Origin: Oscillospiraceae bacterium | GTDB taxonomy: Bacteria; Bacillota; Clostridia; Oscillospirales; Acutalibacteraceae | Length of the DNA stretch: 35,494 nt | Assembly: GCA_009779995.1 (NCBI GenBank) | Contig: WRDW01000018.1 | Span: forward strand, 1 to 35,494 | Direction of reading: 5' to 3' | Part shown: positions 5,545 to 24,462 of the stretch, piece by piece | Layout: every line of letters begins with the position of its first letter | Numbering within the stretch: position 1 is the stretch's first letter | Position numbers and translations under genes: made by a program | The notes under the pieces: model-generated | Seen by the model: only the letters and a program-made list of their open reading frames with translations | Databases searched by the model: none | Told to the model about the DNA's origin: nothing

Positions 5545-5760
5545 TTATGCGTTCCCGTCCATACGGATGGCCCCCATGGGGCAGGCCTTCTCGCAGATGC
5601 CGCAGCCCGTGCAGCCTGAAGCGTCCACTTTGGGGTAGAGATTCTTCAGCGCGTCCACGCCGTTGACGGACAGCGTGATGCAGCTGAACGGGCAGGCCAG
5701 CACGCACACGCTGCAGCTGACGCAGGGTTCGAAATCGAATACGGGCAGTTTGCCTTTCAT
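5545..5760 (-). CDS. 2x[4Fe-4S] ferredoxin of the AOR operon
   Basis: This 71-residue bacterial-type ferredoxin has two cysteine motifs. The first is C13-x2-C16-x2-C19-x3-C23-P and the second C50-x2-C53-x2-C56-x3-C60-P. Each should ligate one [4Fe-4S] cluster. Its ATG overlaps the AOR stop (ATGA, 4-base overlap), so the two are translationally coupled. AOR passes electrons from aldehyde oxidation to ferredoxin, making this the likely dedicated electron carrier or an electron-transfer subunit. The segment between the motifs is longer than in the shortest clostridial ferredoxins (about 55 residues), and the N-terminal motif follows a short extension. No signal peptide is present. Confidence 0.93.
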   Translation of the reverse strand: MKGKLPVFDFEPCVSCSVCVLACPFSCITLSVNGVDALKNLYPKVDASGCTGCGICEKACPMGAIRMDGNA

Positions 5761-7748
5761 GCTCCGACCTCCATTTCCAGCAGGGCGTTGATGCCCAGGG
5801 CTTCCACGGTCTCGGGCGCGGGGACGCCGGTTTCGCCGTCCCAGCCCATGACCTTCCAGTGCAGGCTGACCTGCTCCTTCGCGTAGGGGGCCTTGACGCC
5901 CTTCAGGGGCCCGCTGCGCAGGGAGGGGTAGCCCAGCGCCCGTCCGGGCAGCTTCACCGAGGCCGGGTCTATGCCCTGCTTGACGTTGAACAGCTGCCGC
6001 ATGGTTTGGACGCGCTTGCCTATCTCCATATAGTCGTCGCCGGAGCGGCCCCAGCCGGCGGCGGCGTTCAGGTACTCTATCAGCTTGAAGGTGTGCACGC
6101 CCATCATCTCGCCGTAGTAGCAGCCGCCCGCGCCGTCCATCATCATGGTGTAGCAGGCGTTGGCCGCCGTGGCCAGGGCGACGGTCTCCGTGGGCTCCAG
6201 GTTCTCCTTCTTGTTGCGCAGCTTCGCGGGGGGGGCCCAGGAGCAGATGTCGCACAGGGACATCGCGTTGTACATCAGGTCCATGGCCACGGTGTGCTTG
6301 CCCGGCGCGGGCTCGGCGGCGTAGTGGGTCACCAGGTGGCCGTCGTTCTTGGAGTCGTGCGCGGGCAGCTCGCTGCCGCCCACCTGCATGGCCAGGCGCT
6401 CGCTGCCCTTGCCGATGCGCCGCGCGGCGATCCGGGAGCCGTCCGCCAACACGTCTCCGAAGCCCTCACGGGCGATCATCTTCTTCACCAGGGCGATGAT
6501 GGCCTGCGTGTTGCCCCAGGTGAGTTCCAACCCGTCGGTATCCGCCTTGGTGAGGATGCCCACCTCGAAGCACTCGATGGCGAAGGCGACCGTAGCCCCG
6601 GCAGAAATCGTATCCATGCCCGCGCGGTTGAGCAGCTCGTTGATGATGAAGATGGAATCCAGCGAATTGTTCACCAGCAGCGGCCCGAACTGGTTCATGG
6701 TTTCATATTCCGGCTTGTGGGTCTCATCATACTCCATGCCGGGCACCTTGCCGGTATCCAGCATCCCGCCGCAGCCCATGGGGCAGGAGTAGCAGTGGTA
6801 TTTGGCGGTCTCCATGGCCAGGATTTTATCGGGATTAAATTCTTTGTTGGCACCGGGCACGTCCTTGGGCCCGCCGCTCCAGTTTTTCAGCGGGGCGTCC
6901 CCGCTGACCACCGCCAGGGCCTGGTTCATGGGGGTGCCCCATTTTTTCAGGAGCATTCCGGACATCGCGCCGTCCATGGGGAAGGAGACGGGCAGCCCCA
7001 TCATCCGGCCCACCATGGGGAGCATGGCGCCGCTCACGGGAGGGACCAGCATACGCTTGATCTTCCGGCCCATCACGCTGCTGAGTTCCTTCACCCGCTC
7101 CGGCTGCGCGCTGCGGATGGGCAGGCTGCCCGCCAGCACCACGGCCTTCAGGCGCTTGGAGCCCATCACGCCGCCGAGCCCCGAGCGCGCGGCGATCCTG
7201 CCGCCGTCGTTGCAGATGCCCGCGATGCACGAGCGGTTCTCGCCCGCCTGGCCGATTACGGCCACCCGTGGGAGCTTCTTGCCCTTTTGGCTGTCTTCGG
7301 TCAGGCGCTTTTCGGCTTCAGTGGCGTCCAGGCCCCAATAGGCGGAGGCGTCGCGCAGCTCGCAGGTCCTGTTGTCCATGTAGAGGTAGACCGGCTTCTC
7401 GGAGACGCCGCGGAAGAAGATGGCGTCCACGCCGCACTGCTTGATGGCGGGCGCGAACATGCCCCCGCAGTTGGAGTCCCCCCAACCGCCGGTGAGCGGG
7501 GACTTGCCCACCACGGTCCAGCGCCCGCAGAACAGCGCGCCGGTGCCGGTCAGGGCCCCACTAGTGATGCCGAGGATGTTGTCCGGCCCCAGCGGGTCGG
7601 CCCCCGCCGGAATGTTTTTCAGGCAGTACCAGGCGCCCAGGCCCTTGCCCGAAAGGACGTTGTAGTAGATTTCGTCCGGAACCTTGGTCTTCTTGATCTC
7701 GCCGGAGGTCAGGTCGACCTCCAGGATGGAACCCATGCAGCTTACCAT
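5757..7748 (-). CDS. aor: Aldehyde ferredoxin oxidoreductase family (tungsten/molybdenum pyranopterin enzyme)
   Basis: At 663 residues this is near the usual AOR length (about 600-650). The N-terminal domain begins LEVDLTSGEI and has the family signature KGLGAWY, the TGTGA segment, and WGDSNCGGMFAP. The [4Fe-4S] ligands are visible as C319-x2-C322-x3-C326 (HCYSCPMGC), with the distant fourth cysteine in CDICSW (C502; C499 is nearby). Such enzymes oxidise aldehydes, or reduce acids, using a bis-pyranopterin tungsten or molybdenum cofactor and ferredoxin. The actual substrate is not readable. It is the first gene of an operon with ferredoxin, MoaD-like carrier and ThiF-like activator. The ATG at 7748 has AGGAGG 9 bases upstream; a second Met at residue 5 is less well placed. 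Confidence 0.93.
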   Translation of the reverse strand: MVSCMGSILEVDLTSGEIKKTKVPDEIYYNVLSGKGLGAWYCLKNIPAGADPLGPDNILGITSGALTGTGALFCGRWTVVGKSPLTGGWGDSNCGGMFAPAIKQCGVDAIFFRGVSEKPVYLYMDNRTCELRDASAYWGLDATEAEKRLTEDSQKGKKLPRVAVIGQAGENRSCIAGICNDGGRIAARSGLGGVMGSKRLKAVVLAGSLPIRSAQPERVKELSSVMGRKIKRMLVPPVSGAMLPMVGRMMGLPVSFPMDGAMSGMLLKKWGTPMNQALAVVSGDAPLKNWSGGPKDVPGANKEFNPDKILAMETAKYHCYSCPMGCGGMLDTGKVPGMEYDETHKPEYETMNQFGPLLVNNSLDSIFIINELLNRAGMDTISAGATVAFAIECFEVGILTKADTDGLELTWGNTQAIIALVKKMIAREGFGDVLADGSRIAARRIGKGSERLAMQVGGSELPAHDSKNDGHLVTHYAAEPAPGKHTVAMDLMYNAMSLCDICSWAPPAKLRNKKENLEPTETVALATAANACYTMMMDGAGGCYYGEMMGVHTFKLIEYLNAAAGWGRSGDDYMEIGKRVQTMRQLFNVKQGIDPASVKLPGRALGYPSLRSGPLKGVKAPYAKEQVSLHWKVMGWDGETGVPAPETVEALGINALLEMEVGA

Positions 7749-14288: not shown

Positions 14289-15791
14289 ATGGCATTGACC
14301 GGTGCCTGGCCCATCGCGCTGTTTGTCGGCGTGTCCATCCTTGCCGTATCCTACGGCTGGGGGATGCGCGGGACCACCCTTGGCGGCGAGAAGGGCGCGA
14401 TGCTTCCCGGGGCGCTGATGGGACTGCTGATCGCGGTGTTCAGCGGGTCGGCGTTTTTGCTGGAGCGCTTCTACCTTCTCAGCGCGGCGGGGGCGTTGGG
14501 GATGTACTTCGGCGGCTCGATGTCCTACATGCAGAGCATTGGCCTGGGCTCCGACCGCAACCCGCCGGAGGACCTCAAGCGCGGCCTGACGGGCATCGCC
14601 GTGAAGGGCTCCATCTGGTTCGGCATCTTCGGCGCGGTGGTGGGCCTGTTTTTGACCTTCCTGGCCGGGGCGTACAGCCTGAAAGCTGTGCTGCTATTGT
14701 TCGGCGCCATGCCCCTGGCGGGCCTGATTGGGTCAAGGCTGTTCGACCGGCCCTTCGACGAGGCGAAGGGCATACATCCCAAGATATACTTCTCGCGCAA
14801 CCGGCCCGAGGGCATGGGCGTGCTCTTCGGCATCCTGGCGGCGCTGGTCGTCTTCGCGGCGGCGAACAGGGACGCCCTGGCGCTCTGGCTGACGCTGGGC
14901 AGCACGGTTTCCGGCGGCGCTGGCTTCGTGCTGGCGCAGCTGCTCCACATACGCTCCAAATACCCCAACAAGAGGGGCCGGGTGTTCCTCGGCAGGTACA
15001 GGGGCTGGATAGGCTACTGGAAGGTGGCCGAGTGTACATACGGGGGCATCGCCGGGCTGGGCATCTCCGTTACATTTGTGCTGATTGCGAGGCTTTTGCC
15101 GGGGTACCAGGAGAGGTACGCCTCCATCGCCTGCGTTCCCCAGATGCTGCAAATCGAGCCTTGGATACTGCCCGCGATTTTCGCGATCCTGCTGGGGATA
15201 GACCTGCTGAAGTATATCCGCCGGCGGCCGAAGACCGAGAAGGAGCTGCGCTACATGCTCAGCCGGGGCTGGATGAGCGGCCAGGAGCTGGAGCTGGCCC
15301 TGCAAAGGCCCGGCAGGGAGCCCTCGAGGGCGTTTCAGCTCTACGAGAAGCTCGCGCACATCGCTGAATTCCCCATCTATTGCTACATTCCCCTGCTGAT
15401 GCTCTTTTTGGGAAGCGGCGAGGCGGCGGAGCTCGTTTCGTTTTATGTGCTATATTACGTTATCATCGAGCACCAGTTGTTCGAGCGCTTCAAGTGGTTC
15501 CGGACGATCATGCTCTGGCGCGCCGCGCTGCTCGGGTTTGGGTTTTTGATTGTCTTCGCGCAGTTCTATTGGCACTGGTCGCCCGGTCTGCTGCCCACCA
15601 TGCTGCTCTACGGCGCGGGCTACGAGGCGATCACCCTGGTGGGGAACATCGCGAAGAACAGCCCGGACCGCCACGGGAAGAAGACCATCAAAGAGAGCTC
15701 CCTGAAGGAGGCCTACGGGAGCGCGGCGACCATGCACGGGTATTACTTCATATGCATCGCCGTTATCACTGCATTTGCCGCCCTAATCTGA
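14289..15791 (+). CDS. Polytopic membrane protein of unknown function (500 aa)
   Basis: No family was recognised with confidence. The protein has about ten to twelve hydrophobic stretches. The first loop has a conspicuous Gly/Arg motif, YGWGMRGTTLGGEKGAMLPG (residues 22-41), that looks like a functional site. A central cytoplasmic-looking, basic loop (HIRSKYPNKRGRVFLGRYRG) and a charged stretch of about 60 residues (RRRPKTEKELRYML onward) split the membrane regions. The C-terminal part ends in a final helix. The next gene, a CDP-alcohol phosphatidyltransferase, starts 23 bases downstream and is probably cotranscribed, so a role in lipid or polyol-phosphate polymer metabolism is conceivable. 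The ATG at 14289 is favoured by the ribosome site; an ATG at 14285 is in another frame. Confidence 0.85.
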   Translation: MALTGAWPIALFVGVSILAVSYGWGMRGTTLGGEKGAMLPGALMGLLIAVFSGSAFLLERFYLLSAAGALGMYFGGSMSYMQSIGLGSDRNPPEDLKRGLTGIAVKGSIWFGIFGAVVGLFLTFLAGAYSLKAVLLLFGAMPLAGLIGSRLFDRPFDEAKGIHPKIYFSRNRPEGMGVLFGILAALVVFAAANRDALALWLTLGSTVSGGAGFVLAQLLHIRSKYPNKRGRVFLGRYRGWIGYWKVAECTYGGIAGLGISVTFVLIARLLPGYQERYASIACVPQMLQIEPWILPAIFAILLGIDLLKYIRRRPKTEKELRYMLSRGWMSGQELELALQRPGREPSRAFQLYEKLAHIAEFPIYCYIPLLMLFLGSGEAAELVSFYVLYYVIIEHQLFERFKWFRTIMLWRAALLGFGFLIVFAQFYWHWSPGLLPTMLLYGAGYEAITLVGNIAKNSPDRHGKKTIKESSLKEAYGSAATMHGYYFICIAVITAFAALI

Positions 15792-16399: not shown

Positions 16400-16735
16400 C
16401 TACTGATAGCGTCTGACGACCTCAATCAAACGGTCCAAAAAGGCGTGCTCGCCCAAGGTGTTAATCTTGAGCAGCACCGCCTGGCTGCCGCCGGAGGTGA
16501 TGGCGGAGAGGAACAGCCGCCCACCGCTCTGCACCAGGGTGACGTTCAGGCTCACCCGGTTTTTGCCGACCATGCTGTAGCGCTCGTAGACCCGCACCGC
16601 GCAGCGCATGTCCGGCCCGGCGAAGTCGCTGCCGTCCTCGTAGCTGGCCGAGGCGCTGCCGCGCAGGATGCCGTCGTGAATAGCACCGGCAATTTCGTCA
16701 AAATTGCCTCTGAGATAGCTTTCGAATTTGGCCAT
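16400..16735 (-). CDS. Small DUF6054-like protein (111 aa)
   Basis: The pattern is a short N-terminal helix (MAKFESYLRGNFDEIAGAI), SASASYEDGSDF, CAVRVYERYSMVGKNRVSLNVTLV and SAITSGGSQAVLLKIN. It resembles, from memory, a family of small Firmicute proteins named DUF6054, of unknown function. It contains no signal or membrane segment. It begins 12 bases after the FMN-binding split-barrel gene and is likely cotranscribed with it. The family assignment should be treated as tentative, while the coding status is well supported. Confidence 0.75.
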   Translation of the reverse strand: MAKFESYLRGNFDEIAGAIHDGILRGSASASYEDGSDFAGPDMRCAVRVYERYSMVGKNRVSLNVTLVQSGGRLFLSAITSGGSQAVLLKINTLGEHAFLDRLIEVVRRYQ

Positions 16736-16747
16736 GGAAAAATCTCC

Positions 16748-17572
16748 TTAAAACTCCGTAATCGCCTCCGGCTTTGCCGCCTTGGGATAGATGTAGCCCG
16801 AGGCGGGGGGCATGGAGTTGTAGATTCTTTCAATGTCAATCACATGCGCGCCGGCCTTTTTGCCGAAGTAACTGCCCTTGACCAGCACGCTTTGCATATC
16901 CAGGTTCAGCGCCATCACGCTCACGGGCGTGCCGGGCGCGAGGCCCGCAAGGTCCTCGCCGAAGGGGCTGCCCGCAAAGGCGATGCGGTCCGTGCCCGCG
17001 TGGGTGGCCTGCACGATTGGCGTAATGGACAGGCCGTTCTCTCCGGTGCAGCAGAGGAATTTCGGGCTGTCGATCCCCGCGAAGAGCGCCCTGCCGAAGA
17101 GGTTGAGGGCGTTCTTTTCGCTCTTCGCGGCGAAGGGCGCGGCGGCGCGGCTGAGCAGCGCCCCAAGGCCGATCTGCAGCACGGGCAGCTTTTCTACTTC
17201 CGTGATTTCAAGCAAATCCAGATACCATACGGTGTTGACGCCGAAATACGCATTGTAGCGGAAGAGCGGCTTGTTGTTGTACATGTCGAACTCCGGGCCG
17301 GTTTTGGCCGTGTGGGTGAAGCGCGCGCGGCCGCGCAGCCACTTCATGTCGGCCGTGAGGGCCAAAAAGGCGCAGTCGGGCCGCTTGGGTAAAAACTCCT
17401 TGCTCAAGCCCACGCAGAACTGCCCGAACATGACCCTGTCCTCCCCCAGGCCCTCCAGCGAGCTGAGGAAGGTCAGGTGGGGCTTGCCCTCGTCGTCGAT
17501 TGTGCCCAGCAGGGCGAGCTTGCTGGTCAAGGCGAGCAGCTCCCGCGCCGCCGGGCTGATGGTGTTGTTCAT
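16748..17572 (-). CDS. Pyridoxamine 5'-phosphate oxidase-like FMN-binding split-barrel protein
   Basis: The 274-residue protein has the N-terminal split-barrel signature KLALLGTIDDEGKPHLTFLSSLEG followed by RVMFGQFCVGLSKE, typical of PNPOx-like flavin or heme binding proteins. The N-terminal domain covers about residues 1-130. The C-terminal half holds a second similar region (LSITPIVQATHAGTDRIAF), possibly a degenerate barrel repeat. No specific substrate can be assigned; members include flavin reductases and F420- or heme-binding proteins. The start is supported by AGGAG 9 bases upstream of ATG 17572. It is first of a two-gene unit with the DUF6054-like gene. Confidence 0.8.
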   Translation of the reverse strand: MNNTISPAARELLALTSKLALLGTIDDEGKPHLTFLSSLEGLGEDRVMFGQFCVGLSKEFLPKRPDCAFLALTADMKWLRGRARFTHTAKTGPEFDMYNNKPLFRYNAYFGVNTVWYLDLLEITEVEKLPVLQIGLGALLSRAAAPFAAKSEKNALNLFGRALFAGIDSPKFLCCTGENGLSITPIVQATHAGTDRIAFAGSPFGEDLAGLAPGTPVSVMALNLDMQSVLVKGSYFGKKAGAHVIDIERIYNSMPPASGYIYPKAAKPEAITEF

Positions 17573-17604: not shown

Positions 17605-18087
17605 CTAAAAAAATCTATCTGTCAACACTTTGAATTCCGGCTTTGTTACATAGGAACAATAGCAGGCCTCGCCGGCAAAATGCAGCACCTTTTCAAATCG
17701 GAATCGCAAAACCGGCATGGTGACATACCGCATCACCTCGGTTTTGGGGATCCACATAACTTCGCTTGTTTCGTCCGAAATGGTGGGCTGGCCATCTACA
17801 TAATCACAAAGGAAGTCGAACATCACTTTTGTCGGCACATGCGTTACGCCGTCATGATAAAGATATTGCCCGACGTTGGAATACACCCCTACCAAGCATC
17901 TGACGGAAGCCGTAATGCCGCTCTCCTCAAAGATTTCCCGCAATACGCCTTCCACAAGATTTTCGCCGATTTCAACCTGCCCGCCCGCGGTATCCCAGCC
18001 TCTGTGATGTGTTTTCACGAGAAGCAGGTTTCCGCTTTTATCCTCCACATAGCCTGCAGCGGCTACAATATGTGTAGGAAAGCCCAT
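17605..18087 (-). CDS. Nudix hydrolase
   Basis: The Nudix box is complete: G36-x5-E42-x7-R50-E51-I52-F53-E54-E55-S56-G57-I58. The start is ATG 18087, because the better ribosome site (GGAGGGA) lies just upstream; a TTG five codons earlier would overlap that site. The 160-residue protein should hydrolyse a nucleoside diphosphate linked to another moiety, with Mg bound by the box glutamates. The phosphorylated substrate is unknown. It is 49 bases after the glycyl radical activase gene on the same strand, so it may be read through from that operon. A functional link is not evident. Confidence 0.9.
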   Translation of the reverse strand: MGFPTHIVAAAGYVEDKSGNLLLVKTHHRGWDTAGGQVEIGENLVEGVLREIFEESGITASVRCLVGVYSNVGQYLYHDGVTHVPTKVMFDFLCDYVDGQPTISDETSEVMWIPKTEVMRYVTMPVLRFRFEKVLHFAGEACYCSYVTKPEFKVLTDRFF

Positions 18088-18136
18088 GCTGGTTCCCTCC
18101 AAGAGAATTATTTCTGATTTTGCCTGGCCGCCTCTG

Positions 18137-19078
18137 CTATTCTTTCACCGCGCCCGTCCAGCGGGTATCCGAACAGGCGCCGGTGGATTTCGCGATTTCG
18201 CACAGCGCCTCCATTTTTTCGCGGGCGGCCAGAGGCACACCTGCGAATTCCCAGGCACGGCCCATGCTGCGATATTTTGATTCGCACAGGTTGTTGAACG
18301 CGCACAGCTCCCAGCGTTCGATTGCATCGCTGTGTTCTTTGAGCAATTCGCCTATAGCCCGGATATTTTCATCGCTGTCCGTCGCGCCGGGGATAATCGG
18401 CGTTCGTATCCAGCACCTGCGGTGCGATTCAGCCACGATTCGAAAATTGCGCAGGATCTCTTCGTTGCCCGCGCCGGTCAGCTCTCTGTGCTTTGCGCTG
18501 TCGGCTACTTTTATATCGTACAGCACCATATCGCAATGCTCCAGTGCCGCGCGCAGTCGCGCTTCCGGCACCAGGCCGCAGGTGTCAATCGCCACATGCG
18601 CGCCCCGTTCCTTCAGCAGGCGCAGCAGCTCGAGCGAGGCCCCCTGCATCAGCGCCTCCCCGCCCGAGAGCGTCACGCCGCCCTCGGCGCCCCAGTAGGC
18701 CCTGTCTTTGAGCAGCTCGCGGCAGAGCTTTAAAACATCCCAAGGCAGGCCTTTAGCCTCCAGAGCGCCCGCCGGGCAGGCCTCGCAGCAGGCGAAGCAG
18801 CCCACGCAGCGCGCCCGGTCAATGGCTACGCCGGATGCTTCGAAGGCCAGGGCTTTTTCCGGACATGCGATTGCCCCCTGGGGGCAGACAGCGGCGCAGC
18901 TCCCGCAGCCCATGCATCGCGCGGCGTGCCACAAAACTTCTCTGCGCGGGTCAATGCTCTCGGGGTTGTGGCACCAGCCGCAGCGCAACGGGCAGCCCTT
19001 GAGGAACACCGTGGTGCGCAGGCCGGGGCCGTCCTCGCTGGACATGCGCTGGATGTCGAGGACTGTGAGGGTGGGCAT
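18137..19078 (-). CDS. Glycyl radical enzyme activating enzyme (radical SAM)
   Basis: The 313-residue radical SAM enzyme has the CxxxCxxC cluster motif C29-PLR-C33-GW-C36 preceded by EDGPGLRTTVFLKG. A ferredoxin-like insert carries two further [4Fe-4S] sites (C55/C58/C61/C65 and C91/C94/C97/C101). That layout marks activases of eliminase- and decarboxylase-type glycyl radical enzymes rather than the shorter PFL activase. It would cleave S-adenosylmethionine to 5'-deoxyadenosine and methionine and abstract hydrogen from Gly814 of the enzyme encoded at 21882-24401. It is separated from that enzyme by four genes on the same strand. The ATG follows AAAGGAAAC. Confidence 0.95.
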   Translation of the reverse strand: MPTLTVLDIQRMSSEDGPGLRTTVFLKGCPLRCGWCHNPESIDPRREVLWHAARCMGCGSCAAVCPQGAIACPEKALAFEASGVAIDRARCVGCFACCEACPAGALEAKGLPWDVLKLCRELLKDRAYWGAEGGVTLSGGEALMQGASLELLRLLKERGAHVAIDTCGLVPEARLRAALEHCDMVLYDIKVADSAKHRELTGAGNEEILRNFRIVAESHRRCWIRTPIIPGATDSDENIRAIGELLKEHSDAIERWELCAFNNLCESKYRSMGRAWEFAGVPLAAREKMEALCEIAKSTGACSDTRWTGAVKE

Positions 19079-19088
19079 ATGTTTCCTT

Positions 19089-20327
19089 TCAAGGTTGATT
19101 TAAGGCATTGAGCGCATCTTCATATATTTTCAAGTAATCCTGATTATTTGACATATATAGCGGCTCGCCGTCATCAATAAAATAATATAGCTGGCCGTCT
19201 TTGATAATCATCTTGCGTAAAATTGTGTAATCAAACAGTTCGTCCGCTTCGCCGAATTCGTCTGTATCCTCGGAAAAGAAATGGCTGGAATATTCCACGC
19301 GATCACAGGTGAGCGCGAGAATATCTTCGAAGGGATAATAGCGACAGATGACACGCGATGTCTCAAAATCAAATGCAGCCTCAACAATTTTCAGGTCTCC
19401 ATTCCCATCGCGATATGCTCTGAAGAAGGAACCTTTCTTCGCTGGATAGATGCCGGATGCATCGGCTTCGGTCTTTTCATATGTGTCAATCGAAGCATCA
19501 CGCATATGGCGCATCGCGTCGAATTTGAATTCGCTGTATCGAAAAGCAGCACTGTGTGCTTCCCTCATCGCCAACGCCTCGATCACACTTGCCGTATCTT
19601 CGGCTGCCTTTTCAGCCGAAATCGGCCCGTGCTTGAAAAAGCCCAGGAGAGAGCTGTTTTCATAGGTATCGGACATACTTCTTATAATCAGCAGGGGGAC
19701 GCCCAGTTCCTGCGCGGCCTGCACAACGGCATAGCTCTCCTGGTCCACGGCCACCGCGCCGCAGGCGTTCGCGATTCTGTCGTAGTCGCTCTTGCGCCAG
19801 GTCATCTTGTTGCCGGTGGCGACGGGGGCGAGCTGCGCATCCTTGAGAACGCCATCAGCGAGGGCCGCGAGGGCCGCGTCTGTCTTGATGGAGACCCAGT
19901 CGTCCTTCCACGCCGGAAAGACCTCGCTGGCAATTATAGTTTCGTAGAGGCCAATCTCGGGCACGATGCCGCCGGACATCCCGAACAGGACGAGCACATC
20001 TGGCTGGAAATTCTCGATGAGCGCCCGCGCGCCCGCCTCGGCTTTGTCCAGGCCCATGCCGCACTGGTGGAGGATGACATGCACTGAACCAATCCTGCCA
20101 TATGTGTACTTTTTCCCGGCATTCTTGATTTCCCGGGCGTCGTCCATCCGGTCAATCATGTGTTTTGCCTCCATGTCCATAGCGGCGAGGAGAGCAACGG
20201 AGGGTTTTCCGGGGAGCACGAGGCCATACGCCTCCTCGGTGCCGATGAACCATATCGCAAGGGCTGCGCCCGCAATACAAATCACCAGCGCGATTGCGCT
20301 GAGAAGTATGACTATGCGTTTTTTCAT
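19089..20327 (-). CDS. Membrane-anchored nucleosidase-like protein with C-terminal extension
   Basis: The 412-residue protein has an N-terminal hydrophobic segment (about residues 5-28: basic start, then IVILLSAIALVICIAGAALAIWF). It acts as an uncleaved anchor or signal. Residues about 43-255 form a PNP_UDP_1 (MTA/SAH nucleosidase-like) domain: VALLAAMDMEAKH with Glu53, QCGMGLDKAEAG, and VDQESYA (Glu197) followed by IIRSMSD with Asp220. All three residues correspond to catalytic E12, E174 and D197 of E. coli MTAN. About 150 residues follow (260-412) with no recognised family, encoded by noticeably more AT-rich DNA. It is a paralogue of the upstream gene, 5 bases away. An extracytoplasmic nucleosidase is unusual, since known substrates (MTA, SAH, 5'-deoxyadenosine) are cytoplasmic. 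Confidence 0.8.
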   Translation of the reverse strand: MKKRIVILLSAIALVICIAGAALAIWFIGTEEAYGLVLPGKPSVALLAAMDMEAKHMIDRMDDAREIKNAGKKYTYGRIGSVHVILHQCGMGLDKAEAGARALIENFQPDVLVLFGMSGGIVPEIGLYETIIASEVFPAWKDDWVSIKTDAALAALADGVLKDAQLAPVATGNKMTWRKSDYDRIANACGAVAVDQESYAVVQAAQELGVPLLIIRSMSDTYENSSLLGFFKHGPISAEKAAEDTASVIEALAMREAHSAAFRYSEFKFDAMRHMRDASIDTYEKTEADASGIYPAKKGSFFRAYRDGNGDLKIVEAAFDFETSRVICRYYPFEDILALTCDRVEYSSHFFSEDTDEFGEADELFDYTILRKMIIKDGQLYYFIDDGEPLYMSNNQDYLKIYEDALNALNQP

Positions 20328-20332
20328 GCTGT

Positions 20333-21070
20333 CTATCCCATTTCAGCTAATTTCTTGATCACGGCTTCCGTGCCTTCAGCGGCCTTGTCGGCGGCGATAG
20401 GGCCGTTTTTGGGCCAGGCAGGCAACGTGGAGTAGTGGTAGGTGTTCGCCGTGCAGCGGATCACCAGCAGGGGGATGCCCTTCTCCTTGGCCACCTTCGC
20501 CACGGCGTAGCTCTCCAGGTCGATAGCCACCGCGCCGCTCTGGGCCGCGATGCGCGCCATGGCCTTCGGCGTGATGGAGAAGCCCGATTCCGCCACCAGG
20601 CGCACGCGCCGGGCGTGGGGCAGCAGTTCCTGCGCGAGGGATACGAGCGCTTCGTCGGCGGGGATGGCGTCGCCGCCCTCCACGCCTTCCAGGCTGAGGG
20701 AATCCGCAATCATCACCTGGTGCACTTCGAGCTCGGGAACGAGCGCGCCGGAGGTGCCGTAGACGAATAAATTGCTCGGCTGGAAGGCATCGATCATGTC
20801 GCGCACGCCGGCCTCGGCCTTCTTCAGGCCCATGCCGGTCTGCACCAGCACGACCTCCGTGCCGCCAATCGTGCCGCGGGTATATGTCCTGCCCGCCACC
20901 TTGACTTGACGCACGCCGTCCATGCGCTTGACCAGCTGCTTGGCCTCCACTCTCATCGCCGCCAGCACGGCGATGGGTACCTGTTCGGGCTCTGCCTCCG
21001 GCGCGCCGCAGGCCGCGAAGGCGAGCAGGCACAGCAGCAATACCAATGCTGACGTTATTGCTTTTTTCAT
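20333..21070 (-). CDS. Nucleosidase-fold putative lipoprotein (MTAN-like)
   Basis: The ATG at 21070 is preceded by GGGGG. The 245-residue protein begins with a lipoprotein-type signal (MKKAITSALVLLLCLLAFAAC; candidate lipid-bearing Cys21, though Phe at -3 is not ideal). The rest is a single PNP_UDP_1 domain: IAVLAAMRVEAKQ (Glu42), QTGMGLKKAEAG, and DLESYAV (Glu186). At the position of the catalytic aspartate of MTAN it has Asn209 (RCTANTY) where its paralogue has Asp. Such an Asn is known, to my memory, in futalosine-hydrolase-like relatives, so it may mean altered specificity rather than a dead enzyme. It lies in the glycyl radical operon between the 51-residue Cys protein and the larger paralogue. 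Confidence 0.82.
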   Translation of the reverse strand: MKKAITSALVLLLCLLAFAACGAPEAEPEQVPIAVLAAMRVEAKQLVKRMDGVRQVKVAGRTYTRGTIGGTEVVLVQTGMGLKKAEAGVRDMIDAFQPSNLFVYGTSGALVPELEVHQVMIADSLSLEGVEGGDAIPADEALVSLAQELLPHARRVRLVAESGFSITPKAMARIAAQSGAVAIDLESYAVAKVAKEKGIPLLVIRCTANTYHYSTLPAWPKNGPIAADKAAEGTEAVIKKLAEMG

Positions 21071-21086
21071 AGCAATTCCCCCTAAT

Positions 21087-21242
21087 TTATGTTGTCTTGA
21101 TATCCATACACGCCTCGGCGTCCGCCGGGTCGCGGAAATCCTCCCGGAGAGTGCACCAGAACTTCTGCTCGATGAGATCAAGCTCGCTGTAGACGCAGTC
21201 CTGGCATTCGCGGTTGATGTAAAGGTCGTAGACGAAGCCCAT
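21087..21242 (-). CDS. 51-residue four-cysteine protein, candidate Fe-S small subunit of the glycyl radical enzyme
   Basis: A short frame from ATG 21242 to TAA 21087 fills the gap between the rhomboid-like gene (15 bases upstream) and the lipoprotein gene (16 bases downstream). AAAGGGA sits ahead of the start. The 51-residue product begins MGFVYDLYI and has cysteines at 13, 16, 30 and 45 (CQDC...FWC...EAC). This CxxC-x13-C-x14-C pattern resembles the small HiPIP-like [4Fe-4S] subunits of benzylsuccinate synthase (BssB/BssC) and, more loosely, the small subunit of 4-hydroxyphenylacetate decarboxylase. Membership in the glycyl radical operon supports such a role. No family search was possible; coding is inferred from position, cysteine pattern and tight packing. 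Confidence 0.65.
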   Translation of the reverse strand: MGFVYDLYINRECQDCVYSELDLIEQKFWCTLREDFRDPADAEACMDIKTT

Positions 21243-21257
21243 GGGTGTCCCTTTCTG

Positions 21258-21875
21258 TCAAGTTAGTAGAAACGCCAGCCCAATGCCCGAGAGGAATCCA
21301 TAGCCATGCGCTAACATGCTGCCCGGGTCAACCACGTTCGATATCACATAGAGCAGCAGGTAGATCCGTCCGGGCCACGAAATTGCTTGCAGCAGCTGCG
21401 GCTCCCGCACAAGCATGATCGCAAGCACCGCCAGCGCCCCGTAAATCGCCGGTGAACCCCCTTGGCCGTATTCAGAATCGGGGAAATGAAATACCGATAA
21501 CAGGCTGACAACCAGACCGCTAACCAGCAGCACCAGAAGATAACGCCAAGGGCCGAGCTGTGACTCCATAAAACTGCCCATGGCCCAAAGCGCCGCGCAA
21601 TTGCCCGCCAAGTGAAACAGCCCGCAATGCAAAAACAGATAGCTCACTAGCCGCCAGAGCTGGCCGCGCCGCACGGCCGGGGCATTCAGGCAAAGGGCTT
21701 TGTTGAAGGGTGTGTGGTGCTTGCCCATTTGAATTCCGCAATTGCCTTGCTTGCCCAGGACAAGATATGAATAGCTCCAGCGTTTTACGCCCTTGGGCGG
21801 GAACACCAGGTAATCCAGCACGTGCACAATAACCAACAATGCGATCAGGCTATATGTAACCATATTGAACCTCAT
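21258..21875 (-). CDS. Rhomboid-family intramembrane protease-like protein
   Basis: The 205-residue protein has about six hydrophobic segments. The rhomboid hallmarks are GQLWRLVSYLFLHCGLFHLAGNCAAL in the loop and second core helix, GGSPAIYG with the candidate catalytic serine, and a last-helix histidine in AHGYGFLSGIG. The serine motif is GxSP rather than the usual GxSG. In active rhomboids the Ser-His dyad cleaves membrane proteins within the bilayer. It begins 6 bases after the glycyl radical enzyme stop, so it is cotranscribed with it, which is not a pairing I know. An internal ATG (residue 5, preceded by GAGG) is a possible start. Confidence 0.82.
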   Translation of the reverse strand: MRFNMVTYSLIALLVIVHVLDYLVFPPKGVKRWSYSYLVLGKQGNCGIQMGKHHTPFNKALCLNAPAVRRGQLWRLVSYLFLHCGLFHLAGNCAALWAMGSFMESQLGPWRYLLVLLVSGLVVSLLSVFHFPDSEYGQGGSPAIYGALAVLAIMLVREPQLLQAISWPGRIYLLLYVISNVVDPGSMLAHGYGFLSGIGLAFLLT

Positions 21876-21881
21876 TGAACC

Positions 21882-24401
21882 TTAATATTTATTGTGCGAT
21901 TCCCTTGCTATAATCTCGTTTTGCAGCTCCCTGCCCACGGCGGTGAAGTAGGCGTTGTAGCCTGTCACGCGCACCAGCAGGTTGCGGTAGTTCTCCGGGT
22001 GCTTTTGGGCGTCGCGCAGCATGGCGGCGTCGAGGACGTTGATCTGAAGGGCCGTGCCGCCATTTTGCACATAGCCGCGCAGGAAGCTCTTGAGCTTGGC
22101 GCGGCGCTCGTCGCCCTTCAGCAGGGCGGGCGAGAGCGTGATGGTGTGGCTCGCGCCGTTGGGCAGGCAGTTGTTCCAGCGCTTGTAGTCCCCCGCCCCG
22201 TCCTCGGCGAAGCCGCCGAGGGCCGTGCCCACGGAGTTCGCGTTGGCCGTGGGGCCGTTGACGTCCGCGCCGTTCACCGGGCATATGGCGTTGCTGAGGA
22301 ACTGCCCCCGGGCGCGGCCGTCCGGGCTGGCGGGGAGCACGAAGCCCGAGCCGATCCAGTAGTTCCAGCTGAGCATCCCCCCGCGGTACTGCGCGCCGGT
22401 GGGCGTCTTATACTTCCAGGGCTCCTCGCTCCACAGAGCCATCACGCGCCGGGCCAGGGCGTCGGCCTCGTCGTCGTCGCGGCCATACTTGGGGGCTTTA
22501 TTGAGCGCCTGCGCCTGGAGCACCTCATGGCCCTCCCAGTTGTCCTTCAGGGCCTGGATGAGCTCTGCAATCGTGCATATCTTTTTGTCATACACCAGGT
22601 ACTTGATCGCCAGCAGGCTGTCGACCGTACTGGCGAAGGTGACGCCCTCAATGGTGATGAAGTTCAGCTGCGCGCCGCCCTGCGTGATGTCCAGGCCCTT
22701 CTCCGCGCAGCCGTCCACCAGGCAGGAGAGATAGGGCGTGGGGGCGAACTCGGCCCTGACGGCACACGAGCGGTTGTAGAGATCGACCATCTTCTTCACC
22801 AGGAACTTGATCTGGGCCTCGAAGGCGGCGAAGAAATCCTCGAAGCTCTTAAAGCCAGCAGGATCGCCGGTTTTCGGGGCGTTTACGGGGGTCTCGTAGG
22901 GCTTGTTCCAGAGGGAATCCCTGTAGTCCACCAGCTCCTCCCCGTTCCCAAGGGCCAGTTCCACGGCCTTGAGCAGGTTCAGATTACAGTCGACAGTTGC
23001 CGAGCGGTCGTTGCCGCACATGGTGTTCTCCAGGCAGCCCACGGAGGCATAGTCATGAACGTTACTCTCGTTTATTAAGTCCTGCACCCCCGCGCGCGAG
23101 GCCTCGCGCAGCATCCCCGCCATGGAGCGCTCGTCGAAGTTGAGCAGGAAGGGCGCGCCCTGGCTGTCCGCCACCATATCGACCACTTTGTCGAGCAATT
23201 CCTCCGGGGTGCCGCTGTGCAGGCGCACATTGGGCTTGGGCTCCAGGATGGGCGACATCTCGTCCAGGACCTCCAGCAGCGCGTAGGTCAGGCCGTTGGT
23301 CATGTCCTGCCCGTCCGGGCCCATGCCGCCCATGTTGAACAGCTGCCCGTAGCCCGCCGTGATCCCCTGGTCCCCGGTGGCGATCATGGCGTCGTAGGCA
23401 TAGTTGCAGTGCACCCAGAAGCACTTCAAAATTTCTTTGCCGAACTCTCTGCTCATGCCCTCTTCGATGGAGGCCTGCCAGTAGGGGTAGAGATACTGGT
23501 CCAGGCGGCCGAAGCTGACGCCGGGGCCGGGGTAGTTCTCGTCGCTCATGATGAGCATGTGGGTGATCCACAGGCTCTGCACGGCCTGCCAGAAGCTCTG
23601 GGCCGGTTTCGCCGGGACGACGTCCAGGTTGGCCGCCATGTCCAGCAGCTCCCGCTCACGCATCTCGCCGCTCTCGTTCGCGGCCAGCTCACGGCACTTG
23701 GCGGCGTATTTCTTGGCGAGTTCTATGGGTATGTCGCAGGCGGTCATCATAGCCCGCAGCTGCGCGGCCTGCGAGCCGGTTTTGTCGCCCAGGGCGTCAT
23801 AATAGCCCTTGATTTCTTTTTTGATGCCCTCGAAGCCCAGCCGCAGCGCCTTGGGGTAATTTGAAATCAAATGCCCCGAGGTGGCCCCGCAGTTGCCGAA
23901 GCCCCGCTCCTCGTATTCGATAATGTCGCTGCGCAGGCCGCCGCCCTTGTTCTTCTTGCCCCAGAGGAGCTCGTCATGCTTTTGCGCTTCTTCTTTCGTG
24001 AAGCAGCGCGAGGTCAGCAGGTTGAAGCGCCCGCCCGCGAGCAAATCCCCCGGCAGGACCTCCTGGGGCATGTACGCCACCATGGCCTCCTTGACGAACC
24101 AGGCCCGGCGCTCGGGGAGGCTCCACGCATAGAAGCCCGCCGGAGGGGCGATCTCGCAGGCGTTCTGGTGGAAGCACTTGAGCATGGGCCGGAAAAACGG
24201 GTAGGTCTCGGGCGTGATGTAGAAGGTCTGCTCGTTGAATTGGCTGTCCCAGGGCTCGCCCGTGGTGAAGGACTGCCAGGCGTTGTTCCACTTGCGGCCG
24301 TTACCCTTGAAGTAGTAGTCGCGCAGCCACTGTACACGCGGGCTGAGATTGTAGGGCGTCTTCACGCCGTGCTGGTCCTGCTTGGTGGGTGTGCATGTCA
24401 T
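21882..24401 (-). CDS. Glycyl radical enzyme, CxE type, substrate unknown
   Basis: At 839 residues it is the usual size. The C-terminal glycyl radical motif RVTGYNAYF has the radical-bearing Gly814. The active-site thiyl loop is VGCLENTMCG with Cys456 and Glu458, a Cys-x-Glu motif shared by diol/amine eliminases (PduC-type GRE, CutC) and by hydroxyphenylacetate decarboxylase. PFL instead has a Cys-Cys pair. The N-terminal part carries an unusual motif, GFGNCGATSGHLISNYPKAL, in the substrate-channel region. None of the named specificities can be assigned by eye. Its operon holds an activase with ferredoxin insert and a 51-residue four-Cys protein, pointing toward decarboxylase or X-succinate synthase-like enzymes with small Fe-S subunits. 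The start ATG follows AAAGGGGA and a consensus promoter. Confidence 0.93.
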   Translation of the reverse strand: MTCTPTKQDQHGVKTPYNLSPRVQWLRDYYFKGNGRKWNNAWQSFTTGEPWDSQFNEQTFYITPETYPFFRPMLKCFHQNACEIAPPAGFYAWSLPERRAWFVKEAMVAYMPQEVLPGDLLAGGRFNLLTSRCFTKEEAQKHDELLWGKKNKGGGLRSDIIEYEERGFGNCGATSGHLISNYPKALRLGFEGIKKEIKGYYDALGDKTGSQAAQLRAMMTACDIPIELAKKYAAKCRELAANESGEMRERELLDMAANLDVVPAKPAQSFWQAVQSLWITHMLIMSDENYPGPGVSFGRLDQYLYPYWQASIEEGMSREFGKEILKCFWVHCNYAYDAMIATGDQGITAGYGQLFNMGGMGPDGQDMTNGLTYALLEVLDEMSPILEPKPNVRLHSGTPEELLDKVVDMVADSQGAPFLLNFDERSMAGMLREASRAGVQDLINESNVHDYASVGCLENTMCGNDRSATVDCNLNLLKAVELALGNGEELVDYRDSLWNKPYETPVNAPKTGDPAGFKSFEDFFAAFEAQIKFLVKKMVDLYNRSCAVRAEFAPTPYLSCLVDGCAEKGLDITQGGAQLNFITIEGVTFASTVDSLLAIKYLVYDKKICTIAELIQALKDNWEGHEVLQAQALNKAPKYGRDDDEADALARRVMALWSEEPWKYKTPTGAQYRGGMLSWNYWIGSGFVLPASPDGRARGQFLSNAICPVNGADVNGPTANANSVGTALGGFAEDGAGDYKRWNNCLPNGASHTITLSPALLKGDERRAKLKSFLRGYVQNGGTALQINVLDAAMLRDAQKHPENYRNLLVRVTGYNAYFTAVGRELQNEIIARESHNKY

Positions 24402-24433: not shown

Positions 24434-24462
24434 ATTATAGATGATTTATGTGATTGTGTCAA
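24434..24462 (-). promoter_or_regulatory. Consensus promoter of the glycyl radical operon
   Basis: On the minus strand, TTGACA (24462-24457), a 17-base spacer and TATAAT (24439-24434) match the sigma-A consensus exactly. It lies 33 bases before the ATG. The -35 box overlaps the last codons and stop of dnaE (stop at 24459-24461). Confidence 0.9.

Follow-up and report, generated by a model that had tools for sequence, protein, structure and literature searches.

An orphan glycyl radical enzyme of the eliminase class in a conserved three-gene cassette with recurrent glycerol-gene neighbours

The described glycyl radical enzymes (GREs) closest to the one reported here are the B12-independent glycerol dehydratase (1r8w), HypD (6vxc) and YbiW/PflD (8id7, 8id0). 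In glycerol dehydratase, His164 has a functional role and His281, Ser282 and Asp447 serve as substrate contacts; the enzyme is not known to have a split-barrel partner. HpdBC joins a large GRE to a small cysteine-rich protein and has a second active-site glutamate (Glu637), and YbiW/PflD reportedly cleave 1,5-anhydrohexitol-6-phosphates, which are cyclic ethers. The titles of the YbiW/PflD entries in the PDB show these compounds bound, which makes an ether-cleaving GRE plausible. The DNA analysed in this study, called the window, is a stretch of 35,494 nucleotides from an Oscillospiraceae bacterium (contig WRDW01000018.1), and its minus strand encodes at 21882..24401 a GRE of 839 amino acids with Cys456, Glu458, His177 and Gly814 (PF02901, 426 bits; PF01228 (Gly_radical), 83.5 bits).

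By profile scores and folds, the GRE belongs to the eliminase class and represents an orphan family within it. All NCBIfam equivalog cut-offs were missed, with 391 of 1100 for HypD, 326 of 1050 for CutC, 253 of 1100 for indoleacetate decarboxylase, 183 of 1150 for hydroxyphenylacetate decarboxylase (HPAD), and 92 of 994 for pyruvate formate-lyase (PFL), so that the enzyme sits in no characterised isofunctional group, as the initial annotation, made from the letters alone, had supposed. The best sequence relatives with a solved structure were HypD and glycerol dehydratase, HypD (6vxc) being the top PDB match in phmmer (330 bits). Identity to solved GREs was 21-27% in structural alignments (50 solved chains listed), while plasmid-encoded matches covering 78-80% of the query were 24-32% identical among the matches listed. 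Within the family, identity was 47-85% among 31 aligned members, and a sister branch stood at 47-50%. The AlphaFold model had a mean predicted local distance difference test (pLDDT) score of 85.0 and a predicted template modelling score of 0.89. Its top Foldseek matches were glycerol and propanediol dehydratases, HypD, YbiW and CutC (including 1r8w, 5i2g, 9rcp, 6vxc, 8id7, and 5fau), all classed here as eliminases, and the fumarate-adding enzymes ranked lower; the decarboxylase or C-C lyase proposed in the initial annotation is therefore not favoured. The fold is related to that of YbiW/PflD, but no sugar-phosphate context was seen around the GRE loci.

The motifs VGCLENTMxGNDRSxTVD, YPGxGxSFGR, and GMLSWNYW were common to 79 sequences of at least 50% identity. 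A CxE motif had been predicted and is present as Cys456-Leu-Glu458, with Cys and Glu invariant (79/79), and the adjacent Cys-Cys pair of PFL is absent from the GRE, the residues there being Gly455-Cys456-Leu457. The glycyl radical site, Gly814, was present in 78 of the 79. A joint alignment with glycerol dehydratase and HypD, in which the HypD row begins after His160, which mutagenesis had shown to be essential in HypD, showed that the GRE retains His177, Cys456, Glu458, and Gly814. It shares with glycerol dehydratase the fold, the GRE-activase pair, the Cys-x-Glu motif and the equivalents of His164, Glu435 and Gly763, and with HypD the equivalents of Cys434, Glu436, and Gly765. On the substrate side, all 11 main residues compared (five of glycerol dehydratase and six of HypD) were replaced. 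Unlike in glycerol dehydratase, to which structural alignment gave 26% identity, none of His281, Ser282, Phe333, Tyr339, and Asp447 is kept (0/5), the respective residues being Pro293, Gly294, Gly346, Gly352, and Val470, and the position of Tyr640 is occupied by Leu677. Position 682 of HypD, first taken for a pocket phenylalanine, is glycine in the chain and was dropped from the comparison. The HypD residues Asp278, Ser334, Asp339, Phe340, Tyr450, and Thr645 were taken from PMC7077986, and none of them is kept either (0/6), Thr645 being matched by Trp679; Lys326 is also not kept. The alignment reproduced the equivalence of HypD Ser334 and glycerol dehydratase Phe333 given in that paper. Gly294, Gly346, Gly352, and Val470 were invariant in the 79 sequences, and Trp679 was found in 78 of them. 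Because the two glycerol dehydratase aromatics Phe333 and Tyr339 are glycines in the GRE, the pocket is probably remodelled and enlarged.

A contig scan with the GRE gave 129 loci encoding relatives, from which the best 80 of 129 were kept. Together with 62 further stretches from genome searches, picked for length and newness, they made 142 loci (designated by L and a number), 141 of them distinct; 49 weaker scan relatives and some genome-search matches were left out. The fetched stretches averaged 15 kb, and the loci amounted to 2.18 Mb in total. Cassette counts rest on the 109 loci whose sequence extends 3 kb or more beyond the GRE on its downstream side. The GRE, a radical SAM activase and a split-barrel protein were found together in 103 of the 109 and form a conserved three-gene cassette. 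In 105 loci the activase followed the GRE within 3 kb (exceptions L078, L202, L209, and L211), and the split-barrel gene was present in 106 (exceptions L010, L209, and L216). Where it was found among the first loci (75/80), the activase started no more than 609 bases from the GRE, and in the window the distance was 2.8 kb (18137..19078, minus strand; TIGR02494, 295.8 bits, cut-off 174.35). The split-barrel gene of the window (16748..17572, minus strand) is the conserved third partner that emerged from the survey of gene order in relatives, and the initial annotation had missed it. A GntR regulator was directly upstream of the GRE in 44 of 125 loci. In L229 and L230 (spirochaete-centred class), ornithine-fermentation-type genes stood directly before the GntR-GRE cassette, and the D-ornithine aminomutase and alanine-racemase-like protein of L230 were confirmed by Pfam. 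The sister branch (~49% identical) carried an acyl-CoA dehydrogenase gene straight after the GRE (L208:7486-8775, L212:910-2190, and, by eye, L209:11425-12708), with the activase following it in L208 and L212.

The split-barrel protein, 274 amino acids long, had no Pfam or NCBIfam match of its own. One homologue matched PF01243, and a 55-member profile had two separate stretches that matched split barrels of the HupZ and COG3576 types. Its AlphaFold model (pLDDT 94.1) matched 3in6 in Foldseek (E 2.3e-7), as well as HupZ and F420- and FMN-binding split barrels. Owing to the two separate profile stretches and the fold matches, the protein is assigned as a tandem split barrel (FMN/PNPOx-type), and judging from the modelled fold it may bind a flavin of the FMN type.

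Relatives of the GRE were present in 42 of 155 genomes of the G002 order (centre locus L084, Deltaproteobacteria), 25 of 301 genomes of the G009 order (centre locus L060, Anaerolineaceae), 18 of 393 genomes of the G001 class (centre locus L042, Chloroflexi), and 5 of 198 genomes of the G003 class (centre locus L063, Spirochaetales). Around the window genome, 7 of 198 relatives and 1 of 295 genomes of its order were positive. Five of the 14 genomes of the genus carried the GRE, namely the window genome, G415 (L008), G416 (L007), G418 (L010), and G419 (L206). All 80 kept scan records were metagenome-assembled genomes by title, and this may be why the family escaped study. No account of the cassette was found in the titles and abstract openings listed by literature searches, and as far as these show it has not been described before.

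In 16 of the 141 loci, glycerol catabolism genes belonging to two alternative routes (GlpK; GldA-DhaKL) were separated from the GRE by 0-7.6 kb; this count leaves out L174 (GldA-like match) and L078. In an unsupervised clustering of neighbours, glycerol kinase was the largest non-core cluster after the GRE, activase, split barrel and GntR (8/80 loci), although L078, one of these eight, is a ribulokinase by score. GlpK was present in 13 of the 141 loci, with a gap to the GRE of 1-43 bases in five (L168, L170, L223, L224, and L225) and 1.1-7.6 kb in the others. Nine of the 13 were scored (L060, L011, L080, L168, L221, L223, L225, L170, and L224), and all passed with 678-752 bits against a cut-off of 590; L040 (contig-cut), L042, L044, and L075 were assigned by BLAST at 46-52% identity to L060. 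Pure chance was rejected as the source of this proximity, as about 0.4 copies would be expected in 2.18 Mb by rough arithmetic against the 13 found. The other route was represented by L073, with the order GldA-DhaK-DhaL-GRE, while L035 and L193 had glycerol-3-phosphate dehydrogenase-type genes with no GlpK in view. The gene order in L080 was TRAP transporter, GRE, activase, split barrel, GlpP antiterminator (PF04309, 203 bits), GlpK, GlpD-like protein, FAD protein and Fe-S protein, and L075 was a second locus joining the cassette to a glp gene run. On a FastTree tree, the glycerol label required 8 changes, whereas shuffled labels averaged 15.4; the linkage is therefore clustered yet present in several clades. 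In the G002 order, 39 of the 42 genomes with the GRE encoded GlpK, as did 40 of the 113 that lacked it (Fisher p 2.9e-11, relatedness uncorrected). With its invariant active-site motifs, fixed and unusual flavin-fold partner and recurrent glycerol link, the family is a ready target in the search for a new radical reaction.

The explanation favoured here, tentatively and at somewhat under an even chance, is that the cassette encodes a C-O lyase which acts on a bulkier glycerol-containing compound and feeds glycerol, or a C3 unit, to metabolism. The activase would install the radical on Gly814, and from there it would pass to Cys456. With Glu458 and His177 holding a substrate carbon that bears a hydroxyl group, Cys456 would abstract a hydrogen atom from that carbon, and the adjacent C-O bond would then be cleaved, as in dehydratase and lyase GREs. 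The substrate would be bulkier than, and other than, free glycerol or hydroxyproline. Ester, phosphoester and glycoside bonds are opened by hydrolases, and among glycerol links ethers alone would need radical chemistry. The role of the cassette could thus be to release glycerol or a C3 unit from a hydrolase-resistant compound, most simply a glyceryl ether, and the glycerol would then be used via glycerol kinase and glycerol-3-phosphate dehydrogenase, or via glycerol dehydrogenase and dihydroxyacetone kinase. The split-barrel protein may be an electron donor for the activase or use the product as its substrate.

Several observations weigh against this explanation. The active-site loops of the GRE model had pLDDT values below 50, and the pocket-size claim therefore rests on the alignment. 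One member of the genus, L010, was without the split-barrel gene. Across fetched stretches averaging 15 kb, 125 of the 141 loci showed no glycerol gene, and of the 13 loci with GlpK, four (L011, L040, L060, and L075) had the kinase 5-8 kb from the GRE. The Fisher p value takes no account of shared ancestry, and of the 79 genomes counted as GlpK-positive, 7 have below-cut-off matches only. In the genus of the window, 13 of 14 genomes had GlpK, irrespective of whether they carried the GRE; the genome of the window, 66% complete, yielded none. Other contexts varied, with ornithine aminomutase genes in L230 and with TRAP, ABC and MFS transporters. The weakest link of the proposal is chemical, since standard eliminase chemistry would turn a simple alkylglycerol into hydroxyacetone or 3-hydroxypropanal and not glycerol; release of glycerol would need either an extra pathway step or a 2-hydroxyalkyl-type ether from which glycerol departs as the leaving group.

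A narrower form of the explanation, quite unlikely as it stands, is that the cassette is an anaerobic glyceryl-ether lyase, possibly acting on archaeal isoprenoid or bacterial alkyl ether lipids to give glycerol and a carbonyl compound. Hints of ether lipids beyond glycerol came from FAD enzymes directly behind the cassette or the GRE, which were geranylgeranyl reductase (GGR)-like in L207 (window's family) and L019, both below curated cut-offs, and phytoene desaturase-like in L020 (320 of 238), L207 (below cut-offs), and L030 (by eye). Further hints were an SCP2 lipid-transfer protein, which together with glycerol kinase lay in front of the GRE in L225, the acyl-CoA dehydrogenase of L208 and L212, and a FadR-type domain in the upstream regulator of L036, the one scanned with Pfam. 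If true, a glyceryl-ether lyase would be a radical route for recycling ether lipids without oxygen, and their anaerobic fate would become testable. A GGR-like protein was also considered as a GRE-dependent partner in the genus, being present in all five GRE-positive genomes, but it was kept as a hint only, since it occurred in three of the nine GRE-negative genomes too and lies on another contig in the window's genome; against the archaeal digeranylgeranylglycerophospholipid reductase model it scored 124-153 of 580. A betaine-lipid headgroup was rejected as the GRE substrate, as no clean chemistry was found for it.

Seven minus-strand genes run through the window in the order that the initial annotation had given, and profile searches confirmed their domains. 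The GRE is followed by a rhomboid-family protein (21258..21875; PF01694, 87.5 bits vs a gathering score of 22.6), which fell short of the rhombosortase model (58 of 84), and by a four-Cys protein of 51 amino acids (21087..21242), a candidate Fe-S accessory with no family match and no significant PDB match. These are followed by nucleosidase 1 (20333..21070; PNP_UDP_1, 98.3 bits; lipoprotein-like signal by eye), nucleosidase 2 (19089..20327; PNP_UDP_1, 78.9 bits; N-terminal membrane segment by eye), the activase, and a Nudix hydrolase with a TTG start (17605..18102; PF00293, 55.8 bits). By coordinates the gaps from GRE to Nudix are 6, 15, 16, 5, 10, and 34 bases; the predicted range of 5-49 bases holds if Nudix begins at the first ATG, which makes the last gap 49 bases, but the run does not end at 17605 as had been thought. 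It extends to the split-barrel gene after a gap of 32 bases and then, 12 bases further, to a DUF6054 gene (16400..16735, minus strand; PF19524, 145.5 bits), for which no convincing relative was found in the related loci searched. The single consensus promoter expected before the GRE was recovered as TTGACA-17-TATAAT (24462..24434, minus strand) with a consensus score of 12/12, and its -35 box includes the dnaE stop codon. A scan of the window gave 3 promoter-like sites against 2.9 expected, of which this was the sole perfect one. Among the four genus relatives, a 12/12 promoter also preceded the GRE in L008, L206, and L010, and not in L007.

The extra genes of the window are inserted at three places, with the rhomboid after the GRE, the nucleosidases before the activase, and Nudix after the activase. 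The rhomboid and both nucleosidases had no sequence match in the 141 loci, the four GRE-carrying congeners of the window genome among them, and Nudix had one weak match (L021, 5.7 kb from the GRE). Among the genomes examined, a rhomboid stood between the GRE and the four-Cys gene in the window genome only. The guanine-cytosine (GC) content was 0.625-0.638 in the core genes, 0.552 in the rhomboid, 0.531 in nucleosidase 2, and 0.492 in Nudix; nucleosidase 1 (0.650) and the four-Cys gene (0.551) were off this split. The rhomboid, nucleosidases and Nudix look like lineage-specific insertions behind a strong promoter. Small open reading frames (ORFs) between GRE and activase were also seen at L060:11517-12137, an IS200-like transposase (PF01797, 24.3 of 23), and at L193:11297-11851, with no Pfam match, and insertions into the cassette are therefore not limited to the window. 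The two nucleosidases are tandem paralogues, 43% identical. Elsewhere in the genus, G412 alone had a homologue of nucleosidase 2; no GRE was found in that genome, and no rhomboid was recognised by eye in the stretch around the homologue. The nearest thing to a counter-example for the nucleosidases as local genes was a set of PF01048 genes, uridine-phosphorylase-like and 6-8 kb upstream of the GRE in L036, L054, and L065, with one more in L199; none matched the window nucleosidases at E 1e-3. Within the presumed catalytic stretch of methylthioadenosine/S-adenosylhomocysteine (MTA/SAH) nucleosidases, nucleosidase 1 has Asn where nucleosidase 2 has Asp, a position which we take to be the catalytic Asp, and one paralogue may be inactive or altered. 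The nucleosidases were considered as MTA/SAH-type enzymes clearing the 5'-deoxyadenosine of the activase, and this was dropped; judged by eye, both begin with a signal or membrane segment and should therefore be outside the cytoplasm, and they were kept in no locus.

Other explanations of the locus were weighed against the favoured C-O lyase. It is unlikely that the GRE is a variant of the B12-independent glycerol/propanediol dehydratase, forming a reductive branch beside GlpK or GldA-DhaKL as the oxidative branch; these dehydratases are its closest folds, the His164 and Glu435 equivalents are retained, and the order in L073 is like that of the dha regulon, but residues 281, 282, 333, 339, and 447 of glycerol dehydratase are all replaced, an L047-type iron alcohol dehydrogenase occurred in just 4 of 142 loci, and a two-NPA motif scan of the 142 loci found no GlpF-like protein. 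An eliminase on a non-glycerol substrate, such as an aryl ether or an amino or ammonium compound carrying a hydroxyl group, would leave the glycerol genes adjoining for another reason. The near-invariance of Trp679-Asn-Tyr-Trp682, Glu288, and Tyr290 is consistent with it, as are the diverse transporters and amino-acid catabolism neighbours; it is held to be doubtful, though deserving real weight, given that the glycerol linkage recurs, with 8 changes on the tree.

The remaining explanations turn on the neighbours in the window. A GRE of arylacetate-decarboxylase-like or C-C-cleaving type, to which the four-Cys protein would contribute the Fe-S subunit, would resemble HPAD in the CxE motif and the small four-Cys partner. 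It is highly improbable in the face of HPAD and indoleacetate decarboxylase scores far under cut-off, and of dehydratase and lyase folds at the top of the Foldseek ranking. The small four-Cys protein noted beside the GRE does recur between GRE and activase in L007, L010, and L206, with C13, C16, C30, and C45 invariant in all four sequences, the window's included, but it was absent from L008 and was found in only 3 of the 141 loci, all of the genus; with no significant match it was rejected as an HpdC-like small subunit. The initial annotation had grouped the GRE with the rhomboid and exported nucleosidases as a functional unit, and a single system in which these, Nudix and the four-Cys protein work with the GRE is scarcely credible. 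Close spacing after one promoter in the window genome, the four-Cys protein kept in three of the four other GRE-positive genomes of the genus, and PNP_UDP_1-superfamily genes, unlike the window's two, in L036, L054, L065, and L199 are compatible with it. On synteny a rhomboid-nucleosidase-GRE system was rejected, the grouping being found in 0 of 141 loci and 0 of 4 GRE-positive congeners; absence of these genes beside close homologues is the outcome that the initial annotation had itself named as refuting its proposal. The three separate insertion points and the lower GC of the rhomboid, nucleosidase 2 and Nudix, though not of nucleosidase 1, also weigh against one system.

Further genes were observed away from the cassette. 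A 500-aa protein on the plus strand (14289-15791) is hydrophobic by eye and had no Pfam family at E 0.01. The minus strand of the window encodes at 5757-7748 an aldehyde ferredoxin oxidoreductase (AOR; PF01314, PF02730), and AOR-family genes were also present in L020, L048, L208, and L212. The window's genome (G000; contigs C1, C17, C28, and C32) carries three more long PFL-like genes and a contig-edge piece of another.

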